Part shown: positions 1-64,000 of the stretch, piece by piece
Numbering within the stretch: position 1 is the first letter of the stretch
Layout: every line of letters starts with the position of its first letter
DNA from: Crossaster papposus
Lineage: Eukaryota > Echinodermata > Asteroidea > Velatida > Solasteridae
Direction of reading: 5' to 3'
Length of the DNA stretch: 64,000 nucleotides
Assembly (NCBI GenBank): GCA_037893245.1
Contig: JBAIAA010000701.1
Location: 372,001 to 436,000 of the forward strand
Position numbers and translations under genes: made by a program
The notes under the pieces: generated by a model
What the model was told of the DNA's origin: nothing
Seen by the model: the letters and a program-made list of their open reading frames with translations, nothing else
Databases searched by the model: none

Positions 1-245
1 TAGTTTCAACTGTCAAATATTTTAGATTGATTCAGAATCAAGATATTTTGTCTTAATATTTTAAGTGTCCACTGCCTTTTGTTCTATAGAGGAAACTGTT
101 GACTAACTTGTCAAACATACTTTGTGTCTTGCGGTACGTCTTACATTTTTTGTCAGGTTAAAGATTTTCTTTTCAAAATGAAGGGTTTTGAACCAATACA
201 TTCACAAATAAACAAGTAATTTATGTCAAAGGCATGCCCACTTAC

Positions 246-295
246 TTTTTATGGTAGAATATCGCACGTAGGGTTCTCCTCAGTCTTCCAGGCAT
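246..295 (-). CDS. First coding exon of a kinase gene whose main exon lies left of the window
   Basis: On the minus strand an ATG at 295-293 (purine at -3, context gcaagATGC) opens 16 codons plus two bases and ends at 246 just before a consensus donor, GTAAGT at 245-240. It encodes MPGRLRRTLRAIFYHK. The identical exon in the next nine units joins in phase to the kinase main exon, so this one should belong to a further array copy that continues off the left edge. The exon is inferred from splice signals and phase, not from a transcript. Confidence 0.7.
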
Positions 296-603
296 CTTGC
301 AGTTAAACCCTTTAGATGGAATAAAATTAAGGACTATTAAAATAACACCAGTGTAAGGACACCTCAAGAAGTTTTATGTTTACATGATCAAATTTGGTTG
401 CCATCACAGGGTTCCAGACTTGTAATCGAGTCATTCACATGCCACTTCACAAGTCAGTGCGGAAGTATAAAGAGGAACAATAACAAAGGCATGATTTTGT
501 CAAAGTTCATTTCAATAGCTTGTGAGTTGACCAGAGACTAAATAACTTGTGATTGACTTGAGTGACCTGTGGTGACTTGTGACTGCCTCAATTACAACTG
601 TGC

Positions 604-1275
604 AGGGTTTCCACTGAAATCTGAAAATCAAATCCCATGACTTTTCCAGAATTACAATATGACAATTTCCATGGCATTTATTGTAATTTTGCAGAGAAAT
701 GTTGTTTGAAAATGATACTGATGAAAAGCTGATGTTGGGCTAATCATTTGTTCGCTTTTGAAAATGAGTTTTAATGAATAATGGCCTCCTCCTCCCCTTA
801 CAGCCATCCAATCCACCCACTTTAATATATATCAACTATACCATCAGCAAAGAAAAGACTGTCCCAAAACAGAAGAACCCCCTTCAGAATGTCAAAGTAA
901 TTCATTTGATATAAAGGGGTCACTATGCGGTCATAGCTAGCTCTGGAGGCAAGGGGCGCCAACCCTTTCAGTGTTCCAGCTCTAGTAAACCTAAAGCCAA
1001 AGATAGGTCTGCGAGTACAGTATAGACAAATTGATGTATGTATTGGAAACTGGAAGACTGCCATAGCCACTACTAATACTATAGACTGGCAAGGATAATG
1101 GCCTATAAATTGATCATTATTCCGATATCCCATCAAAAACGGCCCATCCAAAATAACCCTTTCGCAATCTTGATTTCCATGGTTTTTCCAAGACTTAACC
1201 AAAAATTCCCAATTTGTCATAGCTTGTCCATGACAACTTTTCTTTCCACTACTTTTCATGACCCATGGAAACCCT
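604..1275. repeat. Degenerate dispersed-repeat element with 10 bp inverted ends
   Basis: AGGGTTTCCA at 604-613 is the exact reverse complement of TGGAAACCCT at 1266-1275, spanning 672 bp. Both halves contain related words of the kind ccatgacttttcc (about 630-690 and 1140-1265), which suggests an old non-autonomous element or two fragments of one repeat family. No target-site duplication and no transposase were found. A GTG-initiated 154-codon frame (822-1286, minus) and an overlapping 134-codon frame (1098-1502, plus) cross it, but neither resembles a known protein to me. It carries no indel in any unit. Confidence 0.4.
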
Positions 1276-1449
1276 ACATCAGACACTTCAAGTCTAAAAT
1301 ATGTCCAACGGCATATATGTGCAGGTCCAATTGGACCCTCTATTCTAAAGTAAACGGTAGAAAAAATGGGCCTATAATTTTAATTACATGGGAAAACAAA
1401 ATTATCCATTGGAACTTAAAGGGGTCGCAACGAGAAAGGATTTATTCCC

Positions 1450-1468
1450 TGCCCCTTCTCTCTCTCTC
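1450..1468. repeat. CT microsatellite
   Basis: A short (CT)n run inside tctctctctctct. The same length is found in the other units, so it is not a major source of the length differences. The surrounding 1290-1690 stretch is AT-rich and holds nothing else I recognise. Confidence 0.7.
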
Positions 1469-1695
1469 TAACAAAACAATTGTGTTAGGCCCGATAGCAT
1501 AGTACTATAAAAGCAGTACGCCTACCTTTGTAATTTGTTCTGGGTTTGTTTATTAACTGTTGAAGACCTCAATTACAGTATTTCTTAAATCTGGCTACAA
1601 ATCCCAAATGGCCTTGAATATAATGTCTTTCTTACTGAGCCAAACTAGTCCCACCAAGGCCCAAGTGAAATGTTATAAAGTCCGACATTTTCCTG

Positions 1696-2030
1696 TTTAT
1701 AGGCCTACTTAGGCTAAGCCTAAAGTTCTATACATTGAGTTTACCTACCCATTAAACAACAAATAACAAATTTGCTGGTAAATTTCTTTAGTTTTGGCAT
1801 GATTTTTCGATTTTAGTGAAGTTGATGGGTAGGCCCTACCTAGCATCATAAGCATGAGTGGGGAAAATAAATGGTTTTGGTCTATCACTGTCAAAATTTG
1901 TCAACTTAATTATGCCTGCCCTTGGGTGGTTATACACTCAATCAGTCAGCCGATTAGTGTCCCAAATTTCCGGACCCCAGCTTTTTTTATTATTATTTCG
2001 GCCTGACTAGGCTAGGCCTACCCTAGCGTT
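1696..2030. repeat. TAGGC-rich block with small palindromes
   Basis: Short inverted repeats are built from TAGGC words: TTAGGCTAAGCCTAA at 1709-1723, GGTAGGCCCTACC at 1828-1840, and TAGGCCTA at 2013-2020 inside a longer imperfect palindrome. No coding potential is seen. Such words are common in some marine invertebrate genomes, in my recollection, so this is probably remnant repeat DNA rather than a regulatory site. Confidence 0.4.
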
Positions 2031-2320
2031 AAACTTTGTTAACGTTAAATTTCACGGCGATGAAATTGTTAAGAATGAACCAGCATGCAGCAAGCACACG
2101 ACAGATAACGTTTGTCAACAGGGGGCCCAATTTGGCAACACATTCGCGACATGATAATTATTGCACGACACATGAGGCCAGGAAAGTCGTGCGCCACGTT
2201 TAGTGTTTACAGGCGAGACCCAAAACCCAGCACGCACGTAAAATTAACAACACGTTACGTTACATCAAAAAGTTAATCGACATGACCTTTACTAGCTTTG
2301 TAGAAAAATCTGGAAACTAA

Positions 2321-2327
2321 ACTCACC
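2321..2327 (-). promoter_or_regulatory. Consensus 5' splice donor of a candidate non-coding first exon
   Basis: The minus strand reads TCCG|GTGAGT with the exon ending at 2327. This fits the donor of a 5' untranslated exon lying upstream of the coding exon at 246-295. A usable acceptor (AG at 311-310 after a pyrimidine-rich stretch) lies 14 nt before the ATG, giving an intron of about 2.0 kb. Frames entering this donor are closed by stops, so the exon would be untranslated. Confidence 0.4.
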
Positions 2328-2560
2328 GGAATGAAGAGCGATTTCGATCAACTGCCAATGAAAATCCAAAACTCAGAACAATCTGTAGCGCTATAAACGC
2401 GAAATATCGGTCTGGCTAAGTCAAGATCACACACACCGAATAAATTAATTATGCACAGAACTGTCAGAAGAAATGTAAACAGTTGCCTTGGTTGTTTGTT
2501 GACGAATAGAACATGGCGGATAAATACGTCATTCGAGTGACGCAACTAGTGTATACCATT
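2328..2560 (-). promoter_or_regulatory. Candidate core promoter and 5' untranslated exon
   Basis: On the minus strand this stretch carries gcgtcact and tgacgtat (CRE/ATF-like) and tccgccatgttc (close to a YY1 core), 190-220 bp upstream of the consensus donor. A forkhead-like GTAAACA lies at 2475-2481. No TATA box is obvious. This is the best place for a start site of the minus-strand gene, inferred from motifs only. A plus-strand ATGGCGG inside the YY1-like word opens only an 18-codon frame. Confidence 0.35.
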
Positions 2561-2773
2561 TTTGTGTAGGGCTGTATGAACATATCCGACAAGGAAAGGA
2601 AAAATTGAAAACGAAATGCAATTCGTAAATAAACATAATAAAATAGAAGAACCAAAGCCAATTGTTTTAATTAATATCAAGGACAAAAAGTTGCAGAATT
2701 ATTCTACCTACCGAGTGTAAAAATAGGAGTGTAGTAAAATTTTCAACGTACCTGCCCTCCTTCCTACTACAAT

Positions 2774-2969
2774 GGTACGGCCAACATCTACCGTACCGCC
2801 GGCCGGCGCGGGTTGCACACTCGATCGTTCGATCGATCGAACGCGCTATACTATGTAAAACAAAAAGACAAGGAAAGGACGCGCCCACTAGCGCCCTCTA
2901 GAAACGCGTCGCGTTCTACTCGTACAGCGCGAGTGTTTACCCACCCACATCCGTGCATGTTTGTAAACA
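2774..2969. promoter_or_regulatory. CpG-dense regulatory block with palindromes and a CTCF-like core
   Basis: A CpG-rich island in AT-rich surroundings. In order it holds a hairpin GGTACGG/CCGTACC (2774-2780 with 2791-2797), a GCCGGCCGGC palindrome, the 18 bp perfect palindrome CGTTCGATCGATCGAACG (2826-2843), gcgccctcta at 2891-2900 (reverse TAGAGGGCGC, a 10-base match to the CTCF core YAGRKGGCRS), TGTTTAC at 2934-2940, and the near-palindrome TGTTTGTAAACA at 2958-2969. The role is inferred. Confidence 0.45.
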
Positions 2970-3144
2970 TCGCTCGCTTTCGGCTATTTTTAAGCTGCAC
3001 TGCGATTACTTTCCAAGCAAAATGGCATAACAAGCTGCCTCAATTTTTATGAAATTCAAACATTTCCGTTGGAATTTAACAAAAATTGGTCCCCACAATT
3101 TAGATTCAGACTTGTGACAAATTAAAAAATCGTACGATTCATGG

Positions 3145-3150
3145 CACGTG
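3145..3150. promoter_or_regulatory. CACGTG E-box
   Basis: A canonical CACGTG hexamer about 180 bp beyond the CpG block, followed by another GTAAACA at 3215-3221. A single hexamer is weak evidence; it is noted because it is kept in every unit. Confidence 0.25.
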
Positions 3151-3224
3151 TGAGAGAACATCGGATTAATAATAACGCGTGTGTGGGGAGTACATTGGAG
3201 CTATTCGTTAAAATGTAAACAAAT

Positions 3225-3735
3225 CTGAACGGAGCATTAAGAAACTCACACAATTATTTAAAAAATGGCAAGATTTACAATGATGGCAAAATGGACCAAA
3301 CGACCTGGGGTGAGAGAAAATGTTAGAAGACGGAACACTGAAATCAATAAAACAATCTCTGAACAGAGCATTAAGAAGACCACACATTCAACAAATAAAT
3401 AACAAATGGACCAATAAAACGACCTGGGGAGAAAGAAAAGGGAAAAAGACGAGACACTGAAATTAATATTAACTGACATCCCTATTTGAACAGAGCATTA
3501 AAGAATTAGACCACACATTCAACAAATAAATAACAAATGGCACGATTGACAATAATGGCAAAAAGGACCAATAAAACGACCTGGGAAGTGGATACAAAAT
3601 TAAAAAAGACAGAACACTGAAATCAATTTAGAATTAGGCTATTTTTACAGAACATTAAAGAAGACCACACATTCAATAAATAAATAAATGGCAGGATTGA
3701 CTTTGGCAAAAAAAAGACACACATTTACCCTGGTG
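3225..3735. repeat. Degenerate minisatellite, four repeats of about 90-165 bp
   Basis: Four diverged repeats begin at about 3225, 3359, 3487 and 3647. Each opens with a gaacagagcattaagaa-like phrase and continues with caacaaataaataacaaatgg, ggaccaataaaacgacctgg and gacactgaaat-like phrases. The fourth is truncated. The repeats differ from one another far more than array units do, so this tandem duplication predates the array. It is non-coding. Confidence 0.8.
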
Positions 3736-4372
3736 ACCTCCTCCTATCCCTTGCAATAATGAAGTGTATTTCACTGCTAATATTAATAGGAAAACCGATT
3801 ATTCATACAGAAACGCAACACTGGTAAAATAAAACACGGAATGAACATGCGAGTACTTTTTATTTTACTGTATTTTATTTCAAACCCAGTTGTGACTTAT
3901 TAAAAGGGAAATGCACTTGGTACATTTGCAAAAGGGCTAGAGAAAAAATGGTTTCCAATGTTATAGACCAGTCACATATCCACTATATAAGCCAACAAAT
4001 TGTTTCCCACTATGAAAAGCAAATGCAGATTTTGTTTGGACTTTTCTTCCGCAAAACTGCTCAGGATTAATATGTTTTAATACATCATTTATTTATTGCA
4101 ATTACCAACGTGAGTTGTGTAAACTCTAGTGACAATGTAAAGTGACGAGAGGTAACTGAAAGGAAATAAATGGCATAACAAGTAACGACCGTTTTGATTT
4201 GAAAGGAATTTTGCTTCTCATCGTTCTTATACTTTCCTATATTAAAAATCACCAATTCGATTGCTTTTATAATCAATTTCCAATCTGATTTACTATTTCA
4301 AGCACAGGATTTTCGGGATTTTTCTATTTGTCAGGATTAAGTATTACATGTACACAGAATAAAGATGGTTTT
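3736..4372. other. AT-rich spacer, no gene recognised
   Basis: AT-rich sequence with no convincing coding frame on either strand (the longest frame is about 63 codons) and no RNA gene that I recognise. A plus-strand AATAAA at 3828-3833 and T-rich runs near 3860-3890 are present without a gene to serve. Confidence 0.6.
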
Positions 4373-4642
4373 GTTTCATGGTGGGAGGGGTTGTTTCATG
4401 TTGGGGGGGGGGGGAGGGGTTGTTTCATGGTGGGGGGGGGGGTTGTTTCATGGTGGGGGGGGGGGGGTTTCATGGTGGGAGGGGGGTTGTTTCATGGTGG
4501 GGGTTATGGGGGGGGGGGGGGGGGGGGGGTTATGGTAGGGGGTGGGGGGGGGATTTCATGTTGGGGGGCGGTTCATATTGGGGGAGGGGGGGAGGGGTTG
4601 TTTCATGGTGGGGGGGGGGGGGGGGGTGTTTCATGGTGGGGG
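4373..4642. repeat. G-rich minisatellite (270 bp in unit 1)
   Basis: Imperfect repeats of gtttcatggtggggg with runs of 5 to about 17 G on the plus strand. The minus strand, in the sense of the kinase gene, is correspondingly C-rich. The tract starts about 125 bp beyond the gene's polyadenylation signal. Runs of this kind can form G-quadruplexes and change length easily. Unit 1 lacks an early ttcatattggggga phrase that the other units have. Confidence 0.85.
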
Positions 4643-4767
4643 AGATTTTTGTTCTTCATACCGGTAAATGCATCAGACAAGAAGACACCGCTAACTGCTG
4701 GAGGAGACCTGCTGCTGAAAAGGCAAGGAAAAGGTCTTGGAGCGACGGACTGGGCCTGCATGATGTT

Positions 4768-4773
4768 TTTATT
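4768..4773 (-). terminator. Polyadenylation signal AATAAA for kinase copy 1
   Basis: TTTATT on the plus strand gives AATAAA on the minus strand, 309-314 nt past the kinase stop. No better signal lies closer. It would give a 3' UTR of about 330 nt. The spacing to the stop codon is the same in all nine copies. Confidence 0.55.
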
Positions 4774-5081
4774 TGGACTGATAAATGTAATTGCGCTTGC
4801 TGATAATCAGTTTGGTGAAATTGAGATGTGGTCATTTAGCAACAGAAACTGATACAAATTGAACCATGTCGAGTAGTGTAACCACATTTGGAGCATTAAA
4901 TCTGCTTATTTTGTTCACCAAACTCGCAAGCTGCACGAGCACAAACACTTGAAAAGGGAAGGTAAAAGATACTCTTGAGGTGCAGAGGCTGCTGGGATTT
5001 GTTTCTACAGTACTGCTCTAAAAAGGTAGTTCTAACTTCCAGTATCTTGTCTCTTACCTCACCCTGCATTCAAATTATATC

Positions 5082-7004
5082 CTACTTCCAGTGTTTGGAC
5101 ATCTTCTTACAAATATCCGCCATTGTTGGACGCCTTCTAAAATCAACATTCTGGCATTTTTTTCCAACTTGCCGCAATCGTCGAATTCCTGCTGCCTTTC
5201 CGATGTTGATTAGCAGGTCTCCCAATGCATAAATTTCAGCAGGCTTGTTGAAGGGCGAGTCCCCCTCCATAACCTCTGGAGCCATCTGGGGACACTCCAG
5301 GTACATCTGGTTGATGAGATGCTCTGGAATACGGAGCCAGGGACCAGCCACCTCAAGACATGCATTGCCAAGATCAATAATCTTGGCAAGCCATCTTGTC
5401 TTCTTGCCCTCATTTGCTTTATACACAAGTATGTTGTCTGGTTTAATGTCACAGTGCACATATTCGTTGTTGTGCATGTGCAGCAAGCCCTCGCACACAC
5501 GCCGTACAACACGCAGCCAGTTCTTGCGGGAGAGTGCTCCCGGGGTGCCACTCCAGTCCAGAGCATCCTGTAGAGTTGTTACCGACAGGGTGTTCTTATC
5601 GCCCACAAACTCATACAGCATCGTCCGGAGGGGCCGCTGTTCCAACACACCGTACAGCTTGGGGAACGAGGGGTGCTCTCCAATGGCTGCCACAGCTATA
5701 ATCTCCTGCCAAAGTGGTCCCTCCGAATCCTGTGCCTGCAGAACCTTGGCTGCAGCTACAGTGTCATCAGGCAAACGGACTGCAGTCACCTGAGCAAACG
5801 CCCCCTCTCCCACCATTCCACGGCACTGTCCATAGCGGTCGACCACAGCAGGCTTGATATGTCTGCAACTATACATCCTGCACCCAAGATGAGGATGGTA
5901 GACAATCTCCACAGTGGCGGGTTTAGGAACAGCTCCTGGTGAGAGAGGCACTACTGGTGAGAAAGGTGCTTCCTGTGATGGAGCGCCCGGAGCTGACGGA
6001 GGGGCAACCTGTGACAGAGGGGCTACCTGTGACGGCGAGACGACCTGTGACGGCGGGGCTGCGTGTGACGGCGGGGCTGCCTGTGACGGCGGGGCTGCCT
6101 GTGAGGGCGGGACTACCTGTGACGGCGGGACTACCTGTGACGGCGGGACTACCTGTGACGTCGGGACTACCTGTGACGGCGGGACTACCTGTGACGGCGG
6201 GGCGGCCTGTGACGGCGAGGCTGCCTGTGACGGCGAGGCTGCCTGTGACGGCGGGACTACCTGTGAGGGCGGGACTGCCTGTGAGGGCGGGGCGGCCTGT
6301 GACGGCGAGGCTGCCTGTGACGGCGGGACTGCATGTGAGGGCGGGACTACCTGTGAGGGCGGGACTACCTGTGACGGAGAGACTGCCTGTGACGGCGGAG
6401 CTGCCTGTGACAGCGGGGGTTGCAGTGGAGTAGGGGCGTCCGGTGATGGAGGGGCTGGTGGTGAGGGAGTTGCTAATGGCGACCCAGGGGCTGCTGTAAA
6501 TGGAGGGGATGCTGGCGACCCAGGGGCTGCTGATGACCCAGGGGCTGCTGATGACCCAGGAGCTGCTGATGACCCATGGGCTGCTGATGACCCAGCGGCT
6601 GCCGATGAACTAGGGACTGCTGCCGATGGTGACCCGGTGGATTTTGCCGACACAGGGGCTGCACCTCTTTTCTTTCTATGAATGACATATTCCAGAATGA
6701 AATGTTAAATAGTTTCAACTGTCAAATATTTTAGATTGATTCAGAATCAAGATATTTTGTCTTAATATTTTAAGTGTCCACTGCCTTTTGTTCTATAGAG
6801 GAAACTGTTGACTAACTTGTCAAACATACTTTGTGTCTTGCGGTACGTCTTACATTTTTTGTCAGGTTAAAGATTTTCTTTTCAAAATGAAGGGTTTTGA
6901 ACCAATACATTCACAAATAAACAAGTAATTTATGTCAAAGGCATGCCCACTTACTTTTTATGGTAGAATATCGCACGTAGGGTTCTCCTCAGTCTTCCAG
7001 GCAT
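5082..7004 (-). CDS. Protein kinase with SQ-hexapeptide repeat arm, copy 1
   Basis: Two-exon model: 7004-6955, intron 6954-6676 (GTAAGT...TCATAG), then 6675-5082; 547 aa. The main-exon frame runs upstream to a stop at 6707 without an ATG, and its first in-frame start-like codon is GTG (6653). The exon-1 phase (two bases) matches the acceptor phase (one base). Order in the protein: basic start MPGRLRRTLRAIFYHK plus KKKR; Ser/Ala/Gly/Pro-rich 25-100; 23 P-x-S-Q-x-x hexapeptides 104-241; kinase domain about 300-547. Visible motifs are G306-E-G308 loop, AAAK lysine 327, probable helix-C Glu 341, HCD 424-426 with K428 and N431, DLG 451-453, APE 482-484, Glu 497 where helix F usually has Asp, and Arg 532. 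The catalytic residues are all present, so it is probably an active Ser/Thr kinase; family not recognised. There is no membrane segment. The basic start could serve nuclear or mitochondrial targeting. Confidence 0.85.
6003..6416 (-). repeat. 18 bp coding tandem repeat, 23 copies
   Basis: Encodes 23 consecutive hexapeptides of the type PPSQVV, PPSQAA or SPSQAA inside kinase copy 1. Two of the 23 read SH instead of SQ. Because the period is a multiple of three, length changes stay in frame, and the other five frames also tend to stay open. Confidence 0.95.
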
Positions 7005-7312
7005 CTTGCAGTTAAACCCTTTAGATGGAATAAAATTAAGGACTATTAAAATAACACCAGTGTAAGGACACCTCAAGAAGTTTTATGTTTACATGATCAA
7101 ATTTGGTTGCCATCACAGGGTTCCAGACTTGTAATCGAGTCATTCACATGCCACTTCACAAGTCAGTGCGGAAGTATAAAGAGGAACAATAACAAAGGCA
7201 TGATTTTGTCAAAGTTCATTTCAATAGCTTGTGAGTTGACCAGAGACTAAATAACTTGTGATTGACTTGAGTGACCTGTGGTGACTTGTGACTGCCTCAA
7301 TTACAACTGTGC

Positions 7313-7984
7313 AGGGTTTCCACTGAAATCTGAAAATCAAATCCCATGACTTTTCCAGAATTACAATATGACAATTTCCATGGCATTTATTGTAATTTTG
7401 CAGAGAAATGTTGTTTGAAAATGATACTGATGAAAAGCTGATGTTGGGCTAATCATTTGTTCGCTTTTGAAAATGAGTTTTAATGAATAATGGCCTCCTC
7501 CTCCCCTTACAGCCATCCAATCCACCCACTTTAATATATATCAACTATACCATCAGCAAAGAAAAGACTGTCCCAAAACAGAAGAACCCCCTTCAGAATG
7601 TCAAAGTAATTCATTTGATATAAAGGGGTCACTATGCGGTCATAGCTAGCTCTGGAGGCAAGGGGCGCCAACCCTTTCAGTGTTCCAGCTCTAGTAAACC
7701 TAAAGCCAAAGATAGGTCTGCGAGTACAGTATAGACAAATTGATGTATGTATTGGAAACTGGAAGACTGCCATAGCCACTACTAATACTATAGACTGGCA
7801 AGGATAATGGCCTATAAATTGATCATTATTCCGATATCCCATCAAAAACGGCCCATCCAAAATAACCCTTTCGCAATCTTGATTTCCATGGTTTTTCCAA
7901 GACTTAACCAAAAATTCCCAATTTGTCATAGCTTGTCCATGACAACTTTTCTTTCCACTACTTTTCATGACCCATGGAAACCCT
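7313..7984. repeat. Dispersed-repeat element, unit 2 copy
   Basis: Same 10 bp inverted ends and same 672 bp length as the element at 604-1275. Confidence 0.4.
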
Positions 7985-9032
7985 ACATCAGACACTTCAA
8001 GTCTAAAATATGTCCAACGGCATATATGTGCAGGTCCAATTGGACCCTCTATTCTAAAGTAAACGGTAGAAAAAATGGGCCTATAATTTTAATTACATGG
8101 GAAAACAAAATTATCCATTGGAACTTAAAGGGGTCGCAACGAGAAAGGATTTATTCCCTGCCCCTTCTCTCTCTCTCTAACAAAACAATTGTGTTAGGCC
8201 CGATAGCATAGTACTATAAAAGCAGTACGCCTACCTTTGTAATTTGTTCTGGGTTTGTTTATTAACTGTTGAAGACCTCAATTACAGTATTTCTTAAATC
8301 TGGCTACAAATCCCAAATGGCCTTGAATATAATGTCTTTCTTACTGAGCCAAACTAGTCCCACCAAGGCCCAAGTGAAATGTTATAAAGTCCGACATTTT
8401 CCTGTTTATAGGCCTACTTAGGCTAAGCCTAAAGTTCTATACATTGAGTTCACCTACCCATTAAACAACAAATAACAAATTTGCTGGTAAATTTCTTTAG
8501 TTTTGGCATGATTTTTCGATTTTAGTGAAGTTGATGGGTAGGCCCTACCTAGCATCATAAGCATGAGTGGGGAAAATAAATGGTTTTGGTCTATCACTGT
8601 CAAAATTTGTCAACTTAATTATGCCTGCCCTTGGGTGGTTATACACTCAATCAGTCAGCCGATTTAGTGTCCCAAATTTCCGGACCCCAGCTTTTTTTAT
8701 TATTATTTCGGCCTGACTAGGCTAGGCCTACCCTAGCGTTAAACTTTGTTAACGTTAAATTTCACGGCGATGAAATTGTTAAGAATGAACCAGCATGCAG
8801 CAAGCACACGACAGATAACGTTTGTCAACAGGGGGCCCAATTTGGCAACACATTCGCGACATGATAATTATTGCACGACATGCATGAGGCCAGGAAAGTC
8901 GTGCGCCACGTTTAGTGTTTACAGGCGAGACCCAAAACCCAGCACGCACGTAAAATTAACAACACGTTACGTTACATCAAAAAGTTAATCGACATGACCT
9001 TTACTAGCTTTGTAGAAAAATCTGGAAACTAA

Positions 9033-9685
9033 ACTCACCGGAATGAAGAGCGATTTCGATCAACTGCCAATGAAAATCCAAAACTCAGAACAATCTGTAG
9101 CGCTATAAACGCGAAATATCGGTCTGGCTAAGTCAAGATCACACACACCGAATAAATTAATTATGCACAGAACTGTCAGAAGAAATGTAAACAGTTGCCT
9201 TGGTTGTTTGTTGACGAATAGAACATGGCGGATAAATACGTCATTCGAGTGACGCAACTAGTGTATACCATTTTTGTGTAGGGCTGTATGAACATATCCG
9301 ACAAGGAAAGGAAAAATTGAAAACGAAATGCAATTCGTAAATAAACATAATAAAATAGAAGAACCAAAGCCAATTGTTTTAATTAATATCAAGGACAAAA
9401 AGTTGCAGAATTATTCTACCTACCGAGTGTAAAAATAGGAGTGTAGTAAAATTTTCAACGTACCTGCCCTCCTTCCTACTACAATGGTACGGCCAACATC
9501 TACCGTACCGCGCGCCGGCCGGCGCGGGTTGCACACTCGATCGTTCGATCGATCGAACGCGCTATACTATGTAAAACAAAAAGACAAGGAAAGGACGCGC
9601 CCACTAGCGCCCTCTAGAAACGCGTCGCGTTCTACTCGTACAGCGCGAGTGTTTACCCACCCACATCCGTGCATGTTTGTAAACA
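9033..9685 (-). promoter_or_regulatory. Candidate promoter block for kinase copy 1
   Basis: Contains the GTGAGT donor (9033-9038), CRE/YY1-like words and the CpG block from 9486. It lies about 2.0-2.7 kb upstream of the ATG at 7004, so it is the nearest candidate control region of the gene at 5082-7004. The CTCF-like core at 9607-9616 is intact. A private a replaces g in the later caaaatggc word near 9740. Confidence 0.4.
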
Positions 9686-9940
9686 TCGCTCGCTTTCGGC
9701 TATTTTTAAGCTGCACTGCGATTACTTTCCAAGCAAAATAGCATAACAAGCTGCCTCAATTTTTATGAAATTCAAACATTTCCGTTGGAATTTAACAAAA
9801 ATTGGTCCCCACAATTTAGATTCAGACTTGTGACAAATTAAAAAATCGTACGATTCATGGCACGTGTGAGAGAACATCGGATTAATAATAACGCGTGTGT
9901 GGGGAGTACATTGGAGCTATTCGTTAAAATGTAAACAAAT

Positions 9941-10455
9941 CTGAACGGAGCATTAAGAAACTCACACAATTATTTAAAAAATGGCAAGATTTACAATGAT
10001 GGCAAAATGGACCAAACGACCTGGGGTGAGAGAAAATGTTAGAAGACGGAACACTGAAATCAATAAAACAATCTCTGAACAGAGCATTAAGAAGACCACA
10101 CATTCAACAAATAAATAACAAATGGACCAATAAAACGACCTGGGGAGAAAGAAAAGGGAAAAAGACGAGACACTGAAATTAATATTAACTGACATCCCTA
10201 TTTGAACAGAGCATTAAAGAATTAGACCACACATTCAACAAATAAATAACAAATGGCACGATTGACAATAATGGCAAAAAGGACCAATAAAACGACCTGG
10301 GAAGTGGATACAAAATTAAAAAAGACAGAACACTGAAATCAATTTAGAATTAGGCTATTTTTACAGAACATTAAAGAAGACCACACATTCAATAAATAAA
10401 TAAATAAATGGCAGGATTGACTTTGGCAAAAAAAAGACACACATTTACCCTGGTG
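9941..10455. repeat. Degenerate minisatellite, unit 2 copy
   Basis: Same four repeats as at 3225-3735, with one extra aata tetranucleotide in the last repeat. Confidence 0.8.
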
Positions 10456-11092
10456 ACCTCCTCCTATCCCTTGCAATAATGAAGTGTATTTCACTGCTAA
10501 TATTAATAGGAAAACCGATTATTCATACAGAAACGCAACACTGGTAAAATAAAACACGAAATGAACATGCGAGTACTTTTTATTTTACTGTATTTTATTT
10601 CAAACCCAGTTGTGACTTATTAAAAGGGAAATGCACTTGGTACATTTGCAAAAGGGCTAGAGAAAAAATGGTTTCCAATGTTATAGACCAGTCACATATC
10701 CACTATATAAGCCAACAAATTGTTTCCCACTATGAAAAGCAAATGCAGATTTTGTTTGGACTTTTCTTCCGCAAAACTGCTCAGGATTAATATGTTTTAA
10801 TACATCATTTATTTATTGCAATTACCAACGTGAGTTGTGTAAACTCTAGTGACAATGTAAAGTGACGAGAGGTAACTGAAAGGAAATGAATGGCATAACA
10901 AGTAACGACCGTTTTGATTTGAAAGGAATTTTGCTTCTCATCGTTCTTATACTTTCCTATATTAAAAATCACCAATTCGATTGCTTTTATAATCAATTTC
11001 CAATCTGATTTACTATTTCAAGCACAGGATTTTCGGGATTTTTCTATTTGTCAGGATTAAGTATTACATGTACACAGAATAAAGATGGTTTT

Positions 11093-11380
11093 GTTTCATG
11101 GTGGGAGGGGTTGTTTCATGTTGGGGGGGGGGGGGGGGGGGGTTCATATTGGGGGAGGGGGGGAGGGGTTGTTTCATGGTGGGGGTGGGGGGGGTTGTTT
11201 CATGGTGGGGGGGGGGGGTTTCATGGTGGGAGGGGGGTTGTTTCATGGTGGGGGTTATGGGGGGGGGGGGGTTATGGTAGGGGGTGGGGGGGATTTCATG
11301 TTGGGGGGCGGTTCATATTGGGGGAGGGGGGGAGGGGTTGTTTCATGGTGGGGGGGGGGGGGGGTGTTTCATGGTGGGGG
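11093..11380. repeat. G-rich minisatellite (288 bp)
   Basis: Longest of the nine tracts. It has two ttcatattggggga phrases, one near each end, where unit 1 has one. Confidence 0.85.
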
Positions 11381-11505
11381 AGATTTTTGTTCTTCATACC
11401 GGTAAATGCATCAGACAAGAAGACACCGCTAACTGCTGGAGGAGACCTGCTGCTGAAAAGGCAAGGAAAAGGTCTTGGAGCAACGGACTGGGCCTGCATG
11501 ATGTT

Positions 11506-11511
11506 TTTATT
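11506..11511 (-). terminator. Polyadenylation signal for kinase copy 2
   Basis: AATAAA on the minus strand, 309-314 nt past the stop of copy 2. Confidence 0.55.
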
Positions 11512-54108: not shown

Positions 54109-54416
54109 CTTGCAGTTAAACCCTTTAGATGGAATAAAATTAAGGACTATTAAAATAACACCAGTGTAAGGACACCTCAAGAAGTTTTATGTTTACATGA
54201 TCAAATTTGGTTGCCATCACAGGGTTCCAGACTTGTAATCGAGTCATTCACATGCCACTTCACAAGTCAGTGCGGAAGTATAAAGAGGAACAATAACAAA
54301 GGCATGATTTTGTCAAAGTTCATTTCAATAGCTTGTGAGTTGACCAGAGACTAAATAACTTGTGATTGACTTGAGTGACCTGTGGTGACTTGTGACTGCC
54401 TCAATTACAACTGTGC

Positions 54417-55088
54417 AGGGTTTCCACTGAAATCTGAAAATCAAATCCCATGACTTTTCCAGAATTACAATATGACAATTTCCATGGCATTTATTGTAAT
54501 TTTGCAGAGAAATGTTGTTTGAAAATGATACTGATGAAAAGCTGATGTTGGGCTAATCATTTGTTCGCTTTTGAAAATGAGTTTTAATGAATAATGGCCT
54601 CCTCCTCCCCTTACAGCCATCCAATCCACCCACTTTAATATATATCAACTATACCATCAGCAAAGAAAAGACTGTCCCAAAACAGAAGAACCCCCTTCAG
54701 AATGTCAAAGTAATTCATTTGATATAAAGGGGTCACTATGCGGTCATAGCTAGCTCTGGAGGCAAGGGGCGCCAACCCTTTCAGTGTTCCAGCTCTAGTA
54801 AACCTAAAGCCAAAGATAGGTCTGCGAGTACAGTATAGACAAATTGATGTATGTATTGGAAACTGGAAGACTGCCATAGCCACTACTAATACTATAGACT
54901 GGCAAGGATAATGGCCTATAAATTGATCATTATTCCGATATCCCATCAAAAACGGCCCATCCAAAATAACCCTTTCGCAATCTTGATTTCCATGGTTTTT
55001 CCAAGACTTAACCAAAAATTCCCAATTTGTCATAGCTTGTCCATGACAACTTTTCTTTCCACTACTTTTCATGACCCATGGAAACCCT
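54417..55088. repeat. Dispersed-repeat element, unit 9 copy
   Basis: Same inverted ends and length as at 604-1275. Confidence 0.4.
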
Positions 55089-56135
55089 ACATCAGACACT
55101 TCAAGTCTAAAATATGTCCAACGGCATATATGTGCAGGTCCAATTGGACCCTCTATTCTAAAGTAAACGGTAGAAAAAATGGGCCTATAATTTTAATTAC
55201 ATGGGAAAACAAAATTATCCATTGGAACTTAAAGGGGTCGCAACGAGAAAGGATTTATTCCCTGCCCCTTCTCTCTCTCTCTAACAAAACAATTGTGTTA
55301 GGCCCGATAGCATAGTACTATAAAAGCAGTACGCCTACCTTTGTAATTTGTTCTGGGTTTGTTTATTAACTGTTGAAGACCTCAATTACAGTATTTCTTA
55401 AATCTGGCTACAAATCCCAAATGGCCTTGAATATAATGTCTTTCTTACTGAGCCAAACTAGTCCCACCAAGGCCCAAGTGAAATGTTATAAAGTCCGACA
55501 TTTTCCTGTTTATAGGCCTACTTAGGCTAAGCCTAAAGTTCTATACATTGAGTTTACCTACCCATTAAACAACAAATAACAAATTTGCTGGTAAATTTCT
55601 TTAGTTTTGGCATGATTTTTCGATTTTAGTGAAGTTGATGGGTAGGCCCTACCTAGCATCATAAGCATGAGTGGGGAAAATAAATGGTTTTGGTCTATCA
55701 CTGTCAAAATTTGTCAACTTAATTATGCCTGCCCTTGGGTGGTTATACACTCAATCAGTCAGCCGATTAGTGTCCCAAATTTCCGGACCCCAGCTTTTTT
55801 TATTATTATTTCGGCCTGACTAGGCTAGGCCTACCCTAGCGTTAAACTTTGTTAACGTTAAATTTCACGGCGATGAAATTGTTAAGAATGAACCAGCATG
55901 CAGCAAGCACACGACAGATAACGTTTGTCAACAGGGGGCCCAATTTGGCAACACATTCGCGACATGATAATTATTGCACGACATGCATGAGGCCAGGAAA
56001 GTCGTGCGCCACGTTTAGTGTTTACAGGCGAGACCCAAAACCCAGCACGCACGTAAAATTAACAACACGTTACGTTACATCAAAAAGTTAATCGACATGA
56101 CCTTTACTAGCTTTGTAGAAAAATCTGGAAACTAA

Positions 56136-56784
56136 ACTCACCGGAATGAAGAGCGATTTCGATCAACTGCCAATGAAAATCCAAAACTCAGAACAATCTG
56201 TAGCGCTATAAACGCGAAATATCGGTCTGGCTAAGTCAAGATCACACACACCGAATAAATTAATTATGCACAGAACTGTCAGAAGAAATGTAAACAGTTG
56301 CCTTGGTTGTTTGTTGACGAATAGAACATGGCGGATAAATACGTCATTCGAGTGACGCAACTAGTGTATACCATTTTTGTGTAGGGCTGTATGAACATAT
56401 CCGACAAGGAAAGGAAAAATTGAAAACGAAATGCAATTCGTAAATAAACATAATAAAATAGAAGAACCAAAGCCAATTGTTTTAATTAATATCAAGGACA
56501 AAAAGTTGCAGAATTATTCTACCTACCGAGTGTAAAAATAGGAGTGTAGTAAAATTTTCAACGTACCTGCCCTCCTTCCTACTACAATGGTACGGCCAAC
56601 ATCTACCGTACCGCCGGCCGGCGCGGGTTGCACACTCGATCGTTCGATCGATCGAACGCGCTATACTATGTAAAACAAAAAGACAAGGAAAGGACGCGCC
56701 CACTAACGCCCTCTAGAAACGCGTCGCGTTCTACTCGTACAGCGCGAGTGTTTACCCACCCACATCCGTGCATGTTTGTAAACA
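56136..56784 (-). promoter_or_regulatory. Candidate promoter block for kinase copy 8
   Basis: Donor at 56136-56141 and CpG block from 56589. The CTCF-like core carries the a variant at 56706. Confidence 0.4.
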
Positions 56785-57039
56785 TCGCTCGCTTTCGGCT
56801 ATTTTTAAGCTGCACTGCGATTACTTTCCAAGCAAAATGGCATAACAAGCTGCCTCAATTTTTATGAAATTCAATCATTTCCGTTGGAATTTAACAAAAA
56901 TTGGTCCCCACAATTTAGATTCAGACTTGTGACAAATTAAAAAATCGTACGATTCATGGCACGTGTGAGAGAACATCGGATTAATAATAACGCGTGTGTG
57001 GGGAGTACATTGGAGCTATTCGTTAAAATGTAAACAAAT

Positions 57040-57550
57040 CTGAACGGAGCATTAAGAAACTCACACAATTATTTAAAAAATGGCAAGATTTACAATGATG
57101 GCAAAATGGACCAAACGACCTGGGGTGAGAGAAAATGTTAGAAGACGGAACACTGAAATCAATAAAACAATCTCTGAACAGAGCATTAAGAAGACCACAC
57201 ATTCAACAAATAAATAACAAATGGACCAATAAAACGACCTGGGGAGAAAGAAAAGGGAAAAAGACGAGACACTGAAATTAATATTAACTGACATCCCTAT
57301 TTGAACAGAGCATTAAAGAATTAGACCACACATTCAACAAATAAATAACAAATGGCACGATTGACAATAATGGCAAAAAGGACCAATAAAACGACCTGGG
57401 AAGTGGATACAAAATTAAAAAAGACAGAACACTGAAATCAATTTAGAATTAGGCTATTTTTACAGAACATTAAAGAAGACCACACATTCAATAAATAAAT
57501 AAATGGCAGGATTGACTTTGGCAAAAAAAAGACACACATTTACCCTGGTG
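57040..57550. repeat. Degenerate minisatellite, unit 9 copy
   Basis: Same repeats and length as at 3225-3735. Confidence 0.8.
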
Positions 57551-58187
57551 ACCTCCTCCTATCCCTTGCAATAATGAAGTGTATTTCACTGCTAATATTA
57601 ATAGGAAAACCGATTATTCATACAGAAACGCAACACTGGTAAAATAAAACACGGAATGAACATGCGAGTACTTTTTATTTTACTGTATTTTATTTCAAAC
57701 CCAGTTGTGACTTATTAAAAGGGAAATGCACTTGGTACATTTGCAAAAGGGCTAGAGAAAAAATGGTTTCCAATGTTATAGACCAGTCACATATCCACTA
57801 TATAAGCCAACAAATTGTTTCCCACTATGAAAAGCAAATGCAGATTTTGTTTGGACTTTTCTTCCGCAAAACTGCTCAGGATTAATATGTTTTAATACAT
57901 CATTTATTTATTGCAATTACCAACGTGAGTTGTGTAAACTCTAGTGACAATGTAAAGTGACGAGAGGTAACTGAAAGGAAATGAATGGCATAACAAGTAA
58001 CGACCGTTTTGATTTGAAAGGAATTTTGCTTCTCATCGTTCTTATACTTTCCTATATTAAAAATCACCAATTCGATTGCTTTTATAATCAATTTCCAATC
58101 TGATTTACTATTTCAAGCACAGGATTTTCGGGATTTTTCTATTTGTCAGGATTAAGTATTACATGTACACAGAATAAAGATGGTTTT

Positions 58188-58469
58188 GTTTCATGGTGGG
58201 AGGGGTTGTTTCATGTTGGGGGGGGGGGGGGTTCATATTGGGGGAGGGGGGGAGGGGTTGTTTCATGGTGGGGGGGGGGGTTGTTTCATGGTGGGGGGGG
58301 GGGGTTTCATGGTGGGAGGGGGGTTGTTTCATGGTGGGGGTTATGGGGGGGGGGGGGTTATGGTAGGGGGTGGGGGGGGATTTCATGTTGGGGGGCGGTT
58401 CATATTGGGGGAGGGGGGGAGGGGTTGTTTCATGGTGGGGGGGGGGGGGGGGGTGTTTCATGGTGGGGG
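58188..58469. repeat. G-rich minisatellite (282 bp)
   Basis: One base shorter than the unit 8 tract, in a single G run near the end. Confidence 0.85.
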
Positions 58470-58594
58470 AGATTTTTGTTCTTCATACCGGTAAATGCAT
58501 CAGACAAGAAGACACCGCTAACTGCTGGAGGAGACCTGCTGCTGAAAAGGCAAGGAAAAGGTCTTGGAGCGACGGACTGGGCCTGCATGATGTT

Positions 58595-58600
58595 TTTATT
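58595..58600 (-). terminator. Polyadenylation signal for kinase copy 9
   Basis: AATAAA on the minus strand at the conserved distance from the stop of copy 9. Confidence 0.55.
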
Positions 58601-58908
58601 TGGACTGATAAATGTAATTGCGCTTGCTGATAATCAGTTTGGTGAAATTGAGATGTGGTCATTTAGCAACAGAAACTGATACAAATTGAACCATGTCGAG
58701 TAGTGTAACCACATTTGGAGCATTAAATCTGCTTATTTTGTTCACCAAACTCGCAAGCTGCACGAGCACAAACACTGGAAAAGGGAAGGTAAAAGATACT
58801 CTTGAGGTGCAGAGGCTGCTGGGATTTGTTTCTACAGTACTGCTCTAAAAAGGTAGTTCTAACTTCCAGTATCTTGTCTCTTACCTCACCCTGCATTCAA
58901 ATTATATC

Positions 58909-60813
58909 CTACTTCCAGTGTTTGGACATCTTCTTACAAATATCCGCCATTGTTGGACGCCTTCTAAAATCAACATTCTGGCATTTTTTTCCAACTTGCC
59001 GCAATCGTCGAATTCCTGCTGCCTTTCCGATGTTGATTAGCAGGTCTCCCAATGCATAAATTTCAGCAGGCTTGTTGAAGGGCGAGTCCCCCTCCATAAC
59101 CTCTGGAGCCATCTGGGGACACTCCAGGTACATCTGGTTGATGAGATGCTCTGGAATACGGAGCCAGGGACCAGCCACCTCAAGACATGCATTGCCAAGA
59201 TCAATAATCTTGGCAAGCCATCTTGTCTTCTTGCCCTCATTTGCTTTATACACAAGTATGTTGTCTGGTTTAATGTCACAGTGCACATATTCGTTGTTGT
59301 GCATGTGCAGCAAGCCCTCGCACACACGCCGTACAACACGCAGCCAGTTCTTGCGGGAGAGTGCTCCCGGGGTGCCACTCCAGTCCAGAGCATCCTGTAG
59401 AGTTGTTACCGACAGGGTGTTCTTATCGCCCACAAACTCATACAGCATCGTCCGGAGGGGCCGCTGTTCCAACACACCGTACAGCTTGGGGAACGAGGGG
59501 TGCTCTCCAATGGCTGCCACAGCTATAATCTCCTGCCAAAGTGGTCCCTCCGAATCCTGTGCCTGCAGAACCTTGGCTGCAGCTACAGTGTCATCAGGCA
59601 AACGGACTGCAGTCACCTGAGCAAACGCCCCCTCTCCCACCATTCCACGGCACTGTCCATAGCGGTCGACCACAGCAGGCTTGATATGTCTGCAACTATA
59701 CATCCTGCACCCAAGATGAGGATGGTAGACAATCTCCACAGTGGCGGGTTTAGGAACAGCTCCTGGTGAGAGAGGCACTACTGGTGAGAAAGGTGCTTCC
59801 TGTGATGGAGCGCCCGGAGCTGACGGAGGGGCAACCTGTGACAGAGGGGCTACCTGTGACGGCGAGACGACCTGTGACGGCGGGGCTGCGTGTGACGGCG
59901 GGGCTGCCTGTGACGGCGGGGCTGCCTGTGAGGGCGGGACTACCTGTGACGGCGGGACTACCTGTGACGGCGGGACTACCTGTGACGTCGGGACTACCTG
60001 TGACGGCGGGACTACCTGTGACGGCGGGGCGGCCTGTGACGGCGAGGCTGCCTGTGACGGCGGGACTACCTGTGAGGGCGGGACTGCCTGTGAGGGCGGG
60101 GCGGCCTGTGACGGCGAGGCTGCCTGTGACGGCGGGACTGCATGTGAGGGCGGGACTACCTGTGAGGGCGGGACTACCTGTGACGGAGAGACTGCCTGTG
60201 ACGGCGGAGCTGCCTGTGACAGCGGGGGTTGCAGTGGAGTAGGGGCGTCCGGTGATGGAGGGGCTGGTGGTGAGGGAGTTGCTAATGGCGACCCAGGGGC
60301 TGCTGTAAATGGAGGGGATGCTGGCGACCCAGGGGCTGCTGATGACCCAGGGGCTGCTGATGACCCAGGAGCTGCTGATGACCCATGGGCTGCTGATGAC
60401 CCAGCGGCTGCCGATGAACTAGGGACTGCTGCCGATGGTGACCCGGTGGATTTTGCCGACACAGGGGCTGCACCTCTTTTCTTTCTATGAATGACATATT
60501 CCAGAATGAAATGTTAAATAGTTTCAACTGTCAAATATTTTAGATTGATTCAGAATCAAGATATTTTGTCTTAATATTTTAAGTGTCCACTGCCTTTTGT
60601 TCTATAGAGGAAACTGTTGACTAACTTGTCAAACATACTTTGTGTCTTGCGGTACGTCTTACATTTTTTGTCAGGTTAAAGATTTTCTTTTCAAAATGAA
60701 GGGTTTTGAACCAATACATTCACAAATAAACAAGTAATTTATGTCAAAGGCATGCCCACTTACTTTTTATGGTAGAATATCGCACGTAGGGTTCTCCTCA
60801 GTCTTCCAGGCAT
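58909..60813 (-). CDS. Protein kinase with SQ-hexapeptide repeat arm, copy 9
   Basis: Exon 1 is 60813-60764, intron 60763-60485, exon 2 60484-58909; 541 aa. The protein appears identical to copies 7 and 8. This is the last complete gene; its candidate upstream control region lies in the partial unit 10. Confidence 0.85.
59830..60225 (-). repeat. 18 bp coding tandem repeat, 22 copies
   Basis: Hexapeptide array of kinase copy 9, same order as copy 7. Confidence 0.95.
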
Positions 60814-61121
60814 CTTGCAGTTAAACCCTTTAGATGGAATAAAATTAAGGACTATTAAAATAACACCAGTGTAAGGACACCTCAAGAAGTTTTATGTTTA
60901 CATGATCAAATTTGGTTGCCATCACAGGGTTCCAGACTTGTAATCGAGTCATTCACATGCCACTTCACAAGTCAGTGCGGAAGTATAAAGAGGAACAATA
61001 ACAAAGGCATGATTTTGTCAAAGTTCATTTCAATAGCTTGTGAGTTGACCAGAGACTAAATAACTTGTGATTGACTTGAGTGACCTGTGGTGACTTGTGA
61101 CTGCCTCAATTACAACTGTGC

Positions 61122-61793
61122 AGGGTTTCCACTGAAATCTGAAAATCAAATCCCATGACTTTTCCAGAATTACAATATGACAATTTCCATGGCATTTATT
61201 GTAATTTTGCAGAGAAATGTTGTTTGAAAATGATACTGATGAAAAGCTGATGTTGGGCTAATCATTTGTTCGCTTTTGAAAATGAGTTTTAATGAATAAT
61301 GGCCTCCTCCTCCCCTTACAGCCATCCAATCCACCCACTTTAATATATATCAACTATACCATCAGCAAAGAAAAGACTGTCCCAAAACAGAAGAACCCCC
61401 TTCAGAATGTCAAAGTAATTCATTTGATATAAAGGGGTCACTATGCGGTCATAGCTAGCTCTGGAGGCAAGGGGCGCCAACCCTTTCAGTGTTCCAGCTC
61501 TAGTAAACCTAAAGCCAAAGATAGGTCTGCGAGTACAGTATAGACAAATTGATGTATGTATTGGAAACTGGAAGACTGCCATAGCCACTACTAATACTAT
61601 AGACTGGCAAGGATAATGGCCTATAAATTGATCATTATTCCGATATCCCATCAAAAACGGCCCATCCAAAATAACCCTTTCGCAATCTTGATTTCCATGG
61701 TTTTTCCAAGACTTAACCAAAAATTCCCAATTTGTCATAGCTTGTCCATGACAACTTTTCTTTCCACTACTTTTCATGACCCATGGAAACCCT
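61122..61793. repeat. Dispersed-repeat element, unit 10 copy
   Basis: Same inverted ends and length as at 604-1275. Confidence 0.4.
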
Positions 61794-62840
61794 ACATCAG
61801 ACACTTCAAGTCTAAAATATGTCCAACGGCATATATGTGCAGGTCCAATTGGACCCTCTATTCTAAAGTAAACGGTAGAAAAAATGGGCCTATAATTTTA
61901 ATTACATGGGAAAACAAAATTATCCATTGGAACTTAAAGGGGTCGCAACGAGAAAGGATTTATTCCCTGCCCCTTCTCTCTCTCTCTAACAAAACAATTG
62001 TGTTAGGCCCGATAGCATAGTACTATAAAAGCAGTACGCCTACCTTTGTAATTTGTTCTGGGTTTGTTTATTAACTGTTGAAGACCTCAATTACAGTATT
62101 TCTTAAATCTGGCTACAAATCCCAAATGGCCTTGAATATAATGTCTTTCTTACTGAGCCAAACTAGTCCCACCAAGGCCCAAGTGAAATGTTATAAAGTC
62201 CGACATTTTCCTGTTTATAGGCCTACTTAGGCTAAGCCTAAAGTTCTATACATTGAGTTTACCTACCCATTAAACAACAAATAACAAATTTGCTGGTAAA
62301 TTTCTTTAGTTTTGGCATGATTTTTCGATTTTAGTGAAGTTGATGGGTAGGCCCTACCTAGCATCATAAGCATGAGTGGGGAAAATAAATGGTTTTGGTC
62401 TATCACTGTCAAAATTTGTCAACTTAATTATGCCTGCCCTTGGGTGGTTATACACTCAATCAGTCAGCCGATTAGTGTCCCAAATTTCCGGACCCCAGCT
62501 TTTTTTATTATTATTTCGGCCTGACTAGGCTAGGCCTACCCTAGCGTTAAACTTTGTTAACGTTAAATTTCACGGCGATGAAATTGTTAAGAATGAACCA
62601 GCATGCAGCAAGCACACGACAGATAACGTTTGTCAACAGGGGGCCCAATTTGGCAACACATTCGCGACATGATAATTATTGCACGACATGCATGAGGCCA
62701 GGAAAGTCGTGCGCCACGTTTAGTGTTTACAGGCGAGACCCAAAACCCAGCACGCACGTAAAATTAACAACACGTTACGTTACATCAAAAAGTTAATCGA
62801 CATGACCTTTACTAGCTTTGTAGAAAAATCTGGAAACTAA

Positions 62841-63489
62841 ACTCACCGGAATGAAGAGCGATTTCGATCAACTGCCAATGAAAATCCAAAACTCAGAACA
62901 ATCTGTAGCGCTATAAACGCGAAATATCGGTCTGGCTAAGTCAAGATCACACACACCGAATAAATTAATTATGCACAGAACTGTCAGAAGAAATGTAAAC
63001 AGTTGCCTTGGTTGTTTGTTGACGAATAGAACATGGCGGATAAATACGTCATTCGAGTGACGCAACTAGTGTATACCATTTTTGTGTAGGGCTGTATGAA
63101 CATATCCGACAAGGAAAGGAAAAATTGAAAACGAAATGCAATTCGTAAATAAACATAATAAAATAGAAGAACCAAAGCCAATTGTTTTAATTAATATCAA
63201 GGACAAAAAGTTGCAGAATTATTCTACCTACCGAGTGTAAAAATAGGAGTGTAGTAAAATTTTCAACGTACCTGCCCTCCTTCCTACTACAATGGTACGG
63301 CCAACATCTACCGTACCGCCGGCCGGCGCGGGTTGCACACTCGATCGTTCGATCGATCGAACGCGCTATACTATGTAAAACAAAAAGACAAGGAAAGGAC
63401 GCGCCCACTAACGCCCTCTAGAAACGCGTCGCGTTCTACTCGTACAGCGCGAGTGTTTACCCACCCACATCCGTGCATGTTTGTAAACA
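62841..63489 (-). promoter_or_regulatory. Candidate promoter block for kinase copy 9
   Basis: Donor at 62841-62846 and CpG block from 63294, about 2.0-2.7 kb upstream of the ATG at 60813. Confidence 0.4.
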
Positions 63490-63744
63490 TCGCTCGCTTT
63501 CGGCTATTTTTAAGCTGCACTGCGATTACTTTCCAAGCAAAATGGCATAACAAGCTGCCTCAATTTTTATGAAATTCAATCATTTCCGTTGGAATTTAAC
63601 AAAAATTGGTCCCCACAATTTAGATTCAGACTTGTGACAAATTAAAAAATCGTACGATTCATGGCACGTGTGAGAGAACATCGGATTAATAATAACGCGT
63701 GTGTGGGGAGTACATTGGAGCTATTCGTTAAAATGTAAACAAAT

Positions 63745-64000
63745 CTGAACGGAGCATTAAGAAACTCACACAATTATTTAAAAAATGGCAAGATTTACAA
63801 TGATGGCAAAATGGACCAAACGACCTGGGGTGAGAGAAAATGTTAGAAGACGGAACACTGAAATCAATAAAACAATCTCTGAACAGAGCATTAAGAAGAC
63901 CACACATTCAACAAATAAATAACAAATGGACCAATAAAACGACCTGGGGAGAAAGAAAAGGGAAAAAGACGAGACACTGAAATTAATATTAACTGACATC
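63745..64000. repeat. Degenerate minisatellite, cut by the window end
   Basis: The first two of the four repeats seen at 3225-3735, up to the end of the window. Confidence 0.8.

Follow-up and report, generated by a model that had tools for sequence, protein, structure and literature searches.

A head-to-tail array of near-identical kinase genes in Crossaster papposus, probably a single-gene macrosatellite

Ribosomal DNA (rDNA) and histone genes lie in head-to-tail arrays in which each unit has its own promoter and spacer, homogenisation is local and some units carry insertions. Here we describe an array in Crossaster papposus that shares this unit layout, but its product is a lineage-specific kinase and not a bulk component of the cell. 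It fills the window of our analysis, a stretch of 64,000 nucleotides from the assembly GCA_037893245.1 (contig JBAIAA010000701.1, here C701, positions 372,001 to 436,000 of 439,536 bases). Positions given without a contig name are window positions. We consider it probable that the array is a gene-bearing macrosatellite built on a single gene, in which a lineage-specific kinase gene was amplified together with its own promoter and 3' spacer, most likely for dosage.

Protein-coding macrosatellites with units of several kb are already established. For humans, the available part of PMC3599962 describes RS447/USP17, CT47 and FLJ40296/PRR20, with protein-coding units of 4.7, 4.8 and 6.6 kb and variable copy number; one study cited there counted 20–103 units of RS447. 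Their products, as far as these excerpts go, are a deubiquitinase, a cancer-testis antigen and a proline-rich protein, whereas here it is a kinase. In primates, the accessible text of PMC10664989 presents ELOA3 as one protein-coding gene repeated in tandem in nearly identical copies, with a CpG-rich coding exon and concerted evolution. According to the same text the frame is intact in 97% of primate copies (228/234), edge copies are more variable, and the gene arose as a retrogene whose parent is known and is under modest purifying selection (PMC10664989). Judged by that account, the intact frames and the more variable edge copies closely parallel the kinase array. The two differ in that the kinase gene looks spliced, that an intact close parent was not found, that coding constraint among its units is not significant and that the product is a kinase.

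To our knowledge, Stellate is the nearest kinase-related array. In the portion of PMC7874207 available to us, Stellate and Suppressor of Stellate of Drosophila melanogaster are described as a tandem multicopy protein-coding gene with tens to hundreds of copies, encoding a homologue of the regulatory CK2 beta-subunit that takes part in an X/Y conflict and is controlled by PIWI-interacting RNAs. On this description, the likeness is a tandem multicopy gene related to a kinase holoenzyme; the difference is that Stellate corresponds to CK2 beta and the present gene to a kinase domain. Among the titles that our literature searches turned up, none reports a comparable kinase macrosatellite; since most subscription journals were outside our coverage, this says little about whether one has been described. 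An initial annotation of the window called an array of this kind unusual. This is a fair description, although the kind itself is not new, given the single-gene protein-coding macrosatellites already described (USP17/RS447, CT47, PRR20, ELOA3). What sets the kinase array apart is its product, together with how uniform its copies are. The single-gene protein-coding arrays used for comparison come from humans or other primates and from a fly. A kinase that is found solely as a near-identical array offers a natural test of whether the length of an array can set the dosage of a signalling enzyme. It is equally a test case for how uniformity persists in such arrays: blocks of shared variants, an insertion-bearing unit that was probably copied and two probable haplotypes of one flank can be seen in it.

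Extent and homogenisation of the array

Nine complete units and a partial tenth follow one another through window positions 1–64000, all with the gene on the reverse strand. The complete units lie at 1–6709, 6710–13465, 13466–20208, 20209–26953, 26954–33675, 33676–40399, 40400–47107, 47108–53813 and 53814–60518 (lengths 6709, 6756, 6743, 6745, 6722, 6724, 6708, 6706 and 6705 bp), and the partial tenth at 60519–64000; the starts and lengths in the initial annotation were exact. A self-comparison of the window found no 20-mer that recurs in inverted orientation. The annotation also reported one open kinase gene per unit in the same orientation, and the frame is indeed open in all nine complete units (517–529 amino acids from a GTG). 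That there is no spacer is true between repeat units, but about 1.6 kb separate the poly(A) signal of one gene from the CpG-rich region of the next.

The array reaches well past the window. On C701 it spans 223.6 kb, from 215,986 (unit position 2260) to the last base, 439,536, with four insertions inside. From C701:272,001 to the contig end, matching one unit to the sequence gives a continuous array that is interrupted only by a 19,109-bp insertion. For C701:221,501–272,000 the evidence comes from probes, all six of which match the array. None of the 14 500-base probes between C701:81,501 and 212,000 matches it. Within C701:1–72,000 no unit match is both longer than 230 bases and above 93%, and there is none at all at E 1e-10 with low complexity masked. 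As the annotation stated, the window itself contains neither edge of the array, but edges do lie outside it: besides the left one on C701, contigs C282 (521,963 bases) and C359 (819,958 bases) start inside the array and exit it rightward.

Our genome searches covered the whole assembly (1,023,315,904 bases in 1,841 contigs). A protein search finds 38 copies of the array kinase, 29 on C701, six on C282 and three on C359 (106 of 106 candidates scored). The promoter region (unit 2301–3000) likewise has 38 matches, at 99–100% (40 of 41 candidates scored). The regular single-gene array of a repeat-armed kinase proposed from the window is borne out by these counts. The contigs are all broken off within the array, which leaves room for an overlap of C359 with C701; 29 units are therefore the safe minimum per chromosome copy. 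Like a macrosatellite, the array consists of kb-scale (6.7-kb) head-to-tail units over tens to hundreds of kb, the units are nearly identical with local homogenisation, and most of them have an intact frame.

The contigs C282 and C359 probably represent two haplotypes of one right flank, because two flank matches occur in the same order with a shift of 672 bases. The probe from the C282 flank is a dispersed repeat with most matches at 97–98%, and its best other match, with about one mismatch, is at C359:23,996 (40 of 1,750 candidates scored). The unique first part of the C359 probe matches only itself and C282:54,678, at 100% (40 of 1,359 scored). A segmental or assembly duplication is an alternative that we do not favour. 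It does speak against a simple two-haplotype picture that the last kinase copy of C359 is followed by a promoter match, while the last one of C282 is not (one candidate unscored). The matching right flanks carry units of different length, on contigs that, like C701, break inside the array. Copies on C359 have a spacing of 6,705–6,706 bp and an open frame of 534, resembling the right-end units of C701; those on C282 have a spacing of 6,692–6,697 bp and an open frame of 540, and differ from them. The left flank likewise fits the simple two-haplotype picture badly: the only full-length match of its probe is the probe itself (40 of 2,133 scored). A dispersed repeat makes up the first 580 bases of this probe. 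A GC-rich stretch left of the array (C701:213.1–214.1 kb) holds a long tandem run of GACCCACGCGG and is open in several frames on both strands.

To describe variation among units we aligned 22 of them from C701: the window's nine complete units, its tenth, extended to full length with contig sequence, and 12 units further left (the 19.1-kb insertion was left out of one). Pairs of units differ by 0–20 substitutions, with a mean of 9.96 per 6,720 bp. There are 61 variable columns, 43 of which are singletons. Divergence (substitutions and indels) climbs with the number of units that separate the two being compared (rank correlation 0.54; none of 2000 permutations reached this value). Sites 459, 1027 and 4936 divide the array 11:11 at a single sharp block border, which falls between U10 and U11. 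Isolated exceptions at sites 1989, 2877 and 4744 look like short conversion tracts but may stem from recurrent mutation instead. U20 and U21 are identical, and U19 is one indel away. The number of hexapeptide repeats in the protein varies in single whole 18-bp steps, which gives 519, 525 or 531 amino acids from the same codon. Blocks and distance-dependent divergence are what unequal exchange with local homogenisation leaves behind. Homogenisation also looks local from unit length, which is 6,705–6,756 bp in the aligned C701 units compared with the 6,692–6,697 bp of C282.

Four units carry insertions, of 19.1 kb, 5.3 kb (twice) and about 0.9 kb. Where they can be placed, the first is in the spacer and the two 5.3-kb insertions and the one of about 0.9 kb are in intron 1. 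Approximately at C701 240.6–272.3 kb, there are two units with a 5,294-bp insertion and one with the insertion of about 0.9 kb. In both carriers of the 5,294-bp insertion, which have another unit between them, the same insertion probe lies at offset 2,793, so the insertion-bearing unit was probably copied together with its insert.

The predicted gene and its relatives

Sequence signals suggest one gene per unit, consisting of a CpG-rich promoter, a 5' exon, a short exon with the ATG and a large exon that encodes an 18-bp/six-amino-acid repeat and the kinase domain, all on the reverse strand. The putative promoter region lies at 8710–9909 (unit coordinates about 2001–3200). Here the observed/expected ratio of CpG is 1.38–1.41, versus 0.33–0.35 in the preceding 2 kb, in all nine complete units; in 200-base steps, unit 1 has ratios of 1.05–1.73 over 2001–3200 and 0.16–0.56 over 1–2000. 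The 5' exon would end in the consensus donor CCG/GTGAGT, with its last base at 2327, 9039, 15794, 22537, 29282, 36004, 42728, 49436, 56142 and 62847.

In unit 1, an ATG at 295 starts a coding stretch of 50 bases, MPGRLRRTLRAIFYHK, which ends in AA/GTAAGT at 246. The predicted coding part of exon 2, from ATG to the donor GTAAGT, lies at 246–295, 6955–7004, 13711–13760, 20454–20503, 27199–27248, 33921–33970, 40645–40694, 47353–47402, 54059–54108 and 60764–60813. The stretch at 6955–7004 belongs to the gene whose exon 3 is at 5082–6675: exon 2 would join exon 3 of the preceding unit in frame, via CATTCATAG and the acceptor at 6675, to yield a protein of 547 amino acids. In the phase of the initial annotation, each gene appears to straddle a unit border, with the ATG exon and promoter in unit n+1 and the kinase exon in unit n. 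Whole genes would result if units were divided within the spacer, at about 4,000. The long N-terminal part of exon 3 has no ATG, and the frame first reported therefore needs the predicted splice or another start.

Exon 3, from its presumed splice site through the hexapeptide repeat and the kinase domain to the stop, lies at 5082–6675 in unit 1 and, by acceptor and stop positions, at 11820–13431, 18563–20174, 25308–26919 and 32048–33641 in units 2–5 and at 38772–40365, 45498–47073, 52204–53779 and 58909–60484 in units 6–9. In unit 1 the 18-bp minisatellite occupies 6008–6417 (22.8 copies, hexapeptides of the type PPSQ(A/V)(A/V)), the kinase domain (PF00069, 270 amino acids) occupies 5082–5894 and the stop codon is at 5082. 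A likely poly(A) signal, AATAAA, follows at 4768–4773 and is found in units 2–9 as well. Downstream of it, at about 4371–4644, the forward strand has a G-rich, G-quadruplex (G4)-prone tract, the sole site of a G4 motif in the reference unit. The tract has 18–21 runs of at least three G and varies in length (20 of the 22 units measured; U03 and U08 left out). All nine complete window units have the exon 3 signals, the poly(A) signal and the G tract; the signals of exons 1 and 2 are present in the partial tenth as well.

The protein belongs to the eukaryotic protein kinase superfamily: in unit 1 the match to PF00069 has E 8.4e-21 and 75 bits against a cut-off of 31.7. The motifs AAK, HCDIKPDN, DLG and APE are present, and we take them to be the catalytic motifs, with the ATP lysine in AAK, the HxD aspartate in HCD and the DxG aspartate in DLG. 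Attempts to name a precise subfamily gave only generic PDB sequence matches (twitchin as the best, CDK6, GCN2) and five NCBIfam matches, all far under cut-off. The closest intact paralogues that we found are two genes on contig C499 (1,341,456 and 1,530,697), 189 kb apart and 36% identical. The first reads HVN where the array copy has HCD; the catalytic aspartate is thus kept in the array and lost in this paralogue, a probable pseudokinase. Eight related kinase open reading frames (ORFs) at C373:330,339–437,165, 29–32% identical to the array kinase, form a second, more diverged kinase cluster; seven are on the same strand and one has a TGA.

The protein search of the assembly found no intact close single-copy parent, and the nearest other copies are broken. 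The dispersed C246 copy shows deletions besides a stop; in its aligned codons, eight differences are synonymous and 13 alter the amino acid or introduce a stop. At C35:1,275,334–1,277,928 there is a cluster of partial kinase copies in one orientation, mostly of the 3' half and several with stops, at 58–91% protein identity to the array kinase. In the array, the long frame is kept in 37 of 38 copies and the kinase domain is free of stops in all 38; direct translation finds 21 of the 22 aligned C701 units open, with the stop in the unit at C701:292,414. The gene is apparently functional. The support comes indirectly, from the decay of the C246 copy during a time in which the lineage of the array kept its frame open, from 38 nearly unchanged copies of the promoter region, and from the placement of insertions, where it could be made, in the spacer or in intron 1.

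Why the array exists

The explanation by dosage, which we think probable, would run as follows. A spliced kinase gene with its CpG-rich promoter and 3' spacer was amplified head to tail to at least 29 units, and unequal exchange together with gene conversion, processes suggested by the observed sequence pattern, would keep the array nearly uniform. Fork stalling, breakage or recombination at the G-rich tract that follows each gene could drive the exchange. Many identically promoted copies may then make much kinase at some stage or in some tissue. The model for this idea are the rRNA and histone arrays, which supply their products in bulk through many copies. One could also go further and imagine a signalling enzyme supplied from an rDNA-like array of individually promoted kinase genes, with proteins that vary mostly by hexapeptides, exchange at the G4 tract and the C35 copies as a possible small-RNA regulator. 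This extended version we regard as doubtful.

Several points count against the main explanation. The gene model was predicted from sequence signals only. We expected strong purifying selection among units, but this was not borne out: 4 variable sites among 1,138 coding ones compare with 35 among 4,784 non-coding ones (Fisher p = 0.22; 18-bp repeat and G tract excluded). Exon 3 has 15 variable sites, one of which creates a stop. All three substitutions in the kinase domain among the 22 units change the protein; all fall within a stretch of 15 bases (5513–5527 in unit 1 coordinates), and each is confined to a single unit, a different one in each case. Intact frames prove little, because the array is so uniform and only a fraction of 0.047 of random coding changes would produce a stop. 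In addition, the left flank was found once and the right flank twice, so the left side of the second haplotype is missing or diverged.

The main rival is a passive macrosatellite, in which unequal crossing-over spreads the unit and the kinase is carried along without any benefit of copy number, perhaps with one or a few units expressed. Coding constraint that is not significant, the persistence of a unit with a stop and the 43 singletons among 61 variable sites, as expected after recent turnover, would all fit. It is nevertheless somewhat unlikely that the array is merely passive, given 38 promoter regions at 99–100%, open frames in all copies but one and an assembly search that found no other intact close copy able to carry the function. 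A conflict array like Stellate, that is, a selfish or sex-linked multicopy gene kept under control by small RNAs that decayed relatives elsewhere produce, could account for the partial copies on C35 and the broken copy on C246. Dead copies are, however, ordinary by-products of amplification, and the Stellate protein, as the cited portion of PMC7874207 has it, is a homologue of the CK2 beta-subunit and not a kinase domain. No CK2 beta match is among the Pfam and PDB matches of the array protein, and we think a conflict origin improbable.

The array could also be a product of assembly, with a low-copy gene unrolled into false repeats. Each of the three array contigs is broken off within the array, and on C701 the final two complete units are identical, so the assembly does not resolve the middle. 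An artefact is nevertheless very unlikely. Private substitutions or length differences mark most of the aligned units, insertions are present in four, and the assembly passes from array to flank on three contigs, at the left junction and at two right flanks that match each other. Rolling-circle replication of a kinase-carrying mobile or viral genome could give head-to-tail 6.7-kb repeats too. We give such a concatemer next to no credence: the predicted layout is spliced with a CpG-rich promoter, the sequence matches are cellular kinases and paralogues in the same genome, and the Pfam scan of the six ORFs of at least 150 amino acids in unit 1, together with the Rfam scan, yields, beyond the kinase, one weak Cementoin match. 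A phage origin is rejected, as tblastn against a phage collection gave zero matches.

Second-gene candidates, the large insertion and spacer repeats

We scanned the six ORFs of at least 150 amino acids in unit 1 against Pfam: one is the kinase, four have no match and one has the Cementoin match. As candidates for a second gene, the ORFs at 4328–4852 (forward strand) and 822–1286 (reverse strand) are among those without a Pfam match. Three ORFs lie antisense to exon 3; two have no match either, and the third, over the 18-bp repeat, gives Cementoin as a weak match of the repeat type, with no single stretch passing. Rfam has zero matches in the unit.

The 19,109-bp insertion (C701:309,730–328,838) has perfect terminal inverted repeats of 702 bp and a 6-bp target duplication, ATTTCA. 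Its ends are AT-rich and consist of tandem copies of a roughly 150-bp repeat. Among its eight ATG-started ORFs of at least 90 amino acids (a ninth, nested in another, was left out), one matches the integrase core PF24764 (1.5e-35) and one the end of the HECT domain PF00632 (8.2e-10); the other matches, helix-turn-helix and others, are below cut-off. Size and 6-bp duplication would fit a typical Maverick/Polinton, but a polymerase or capsid match is absent among the eight ORFs. The insertion is probably a young large DNA element of uncertain class.

Adjoining the CpG-rich region, degenerate direct repeats with copies 119–272 bp apart occupy 3224–3722. They resemble the spacer repeats of rDNA in position only.

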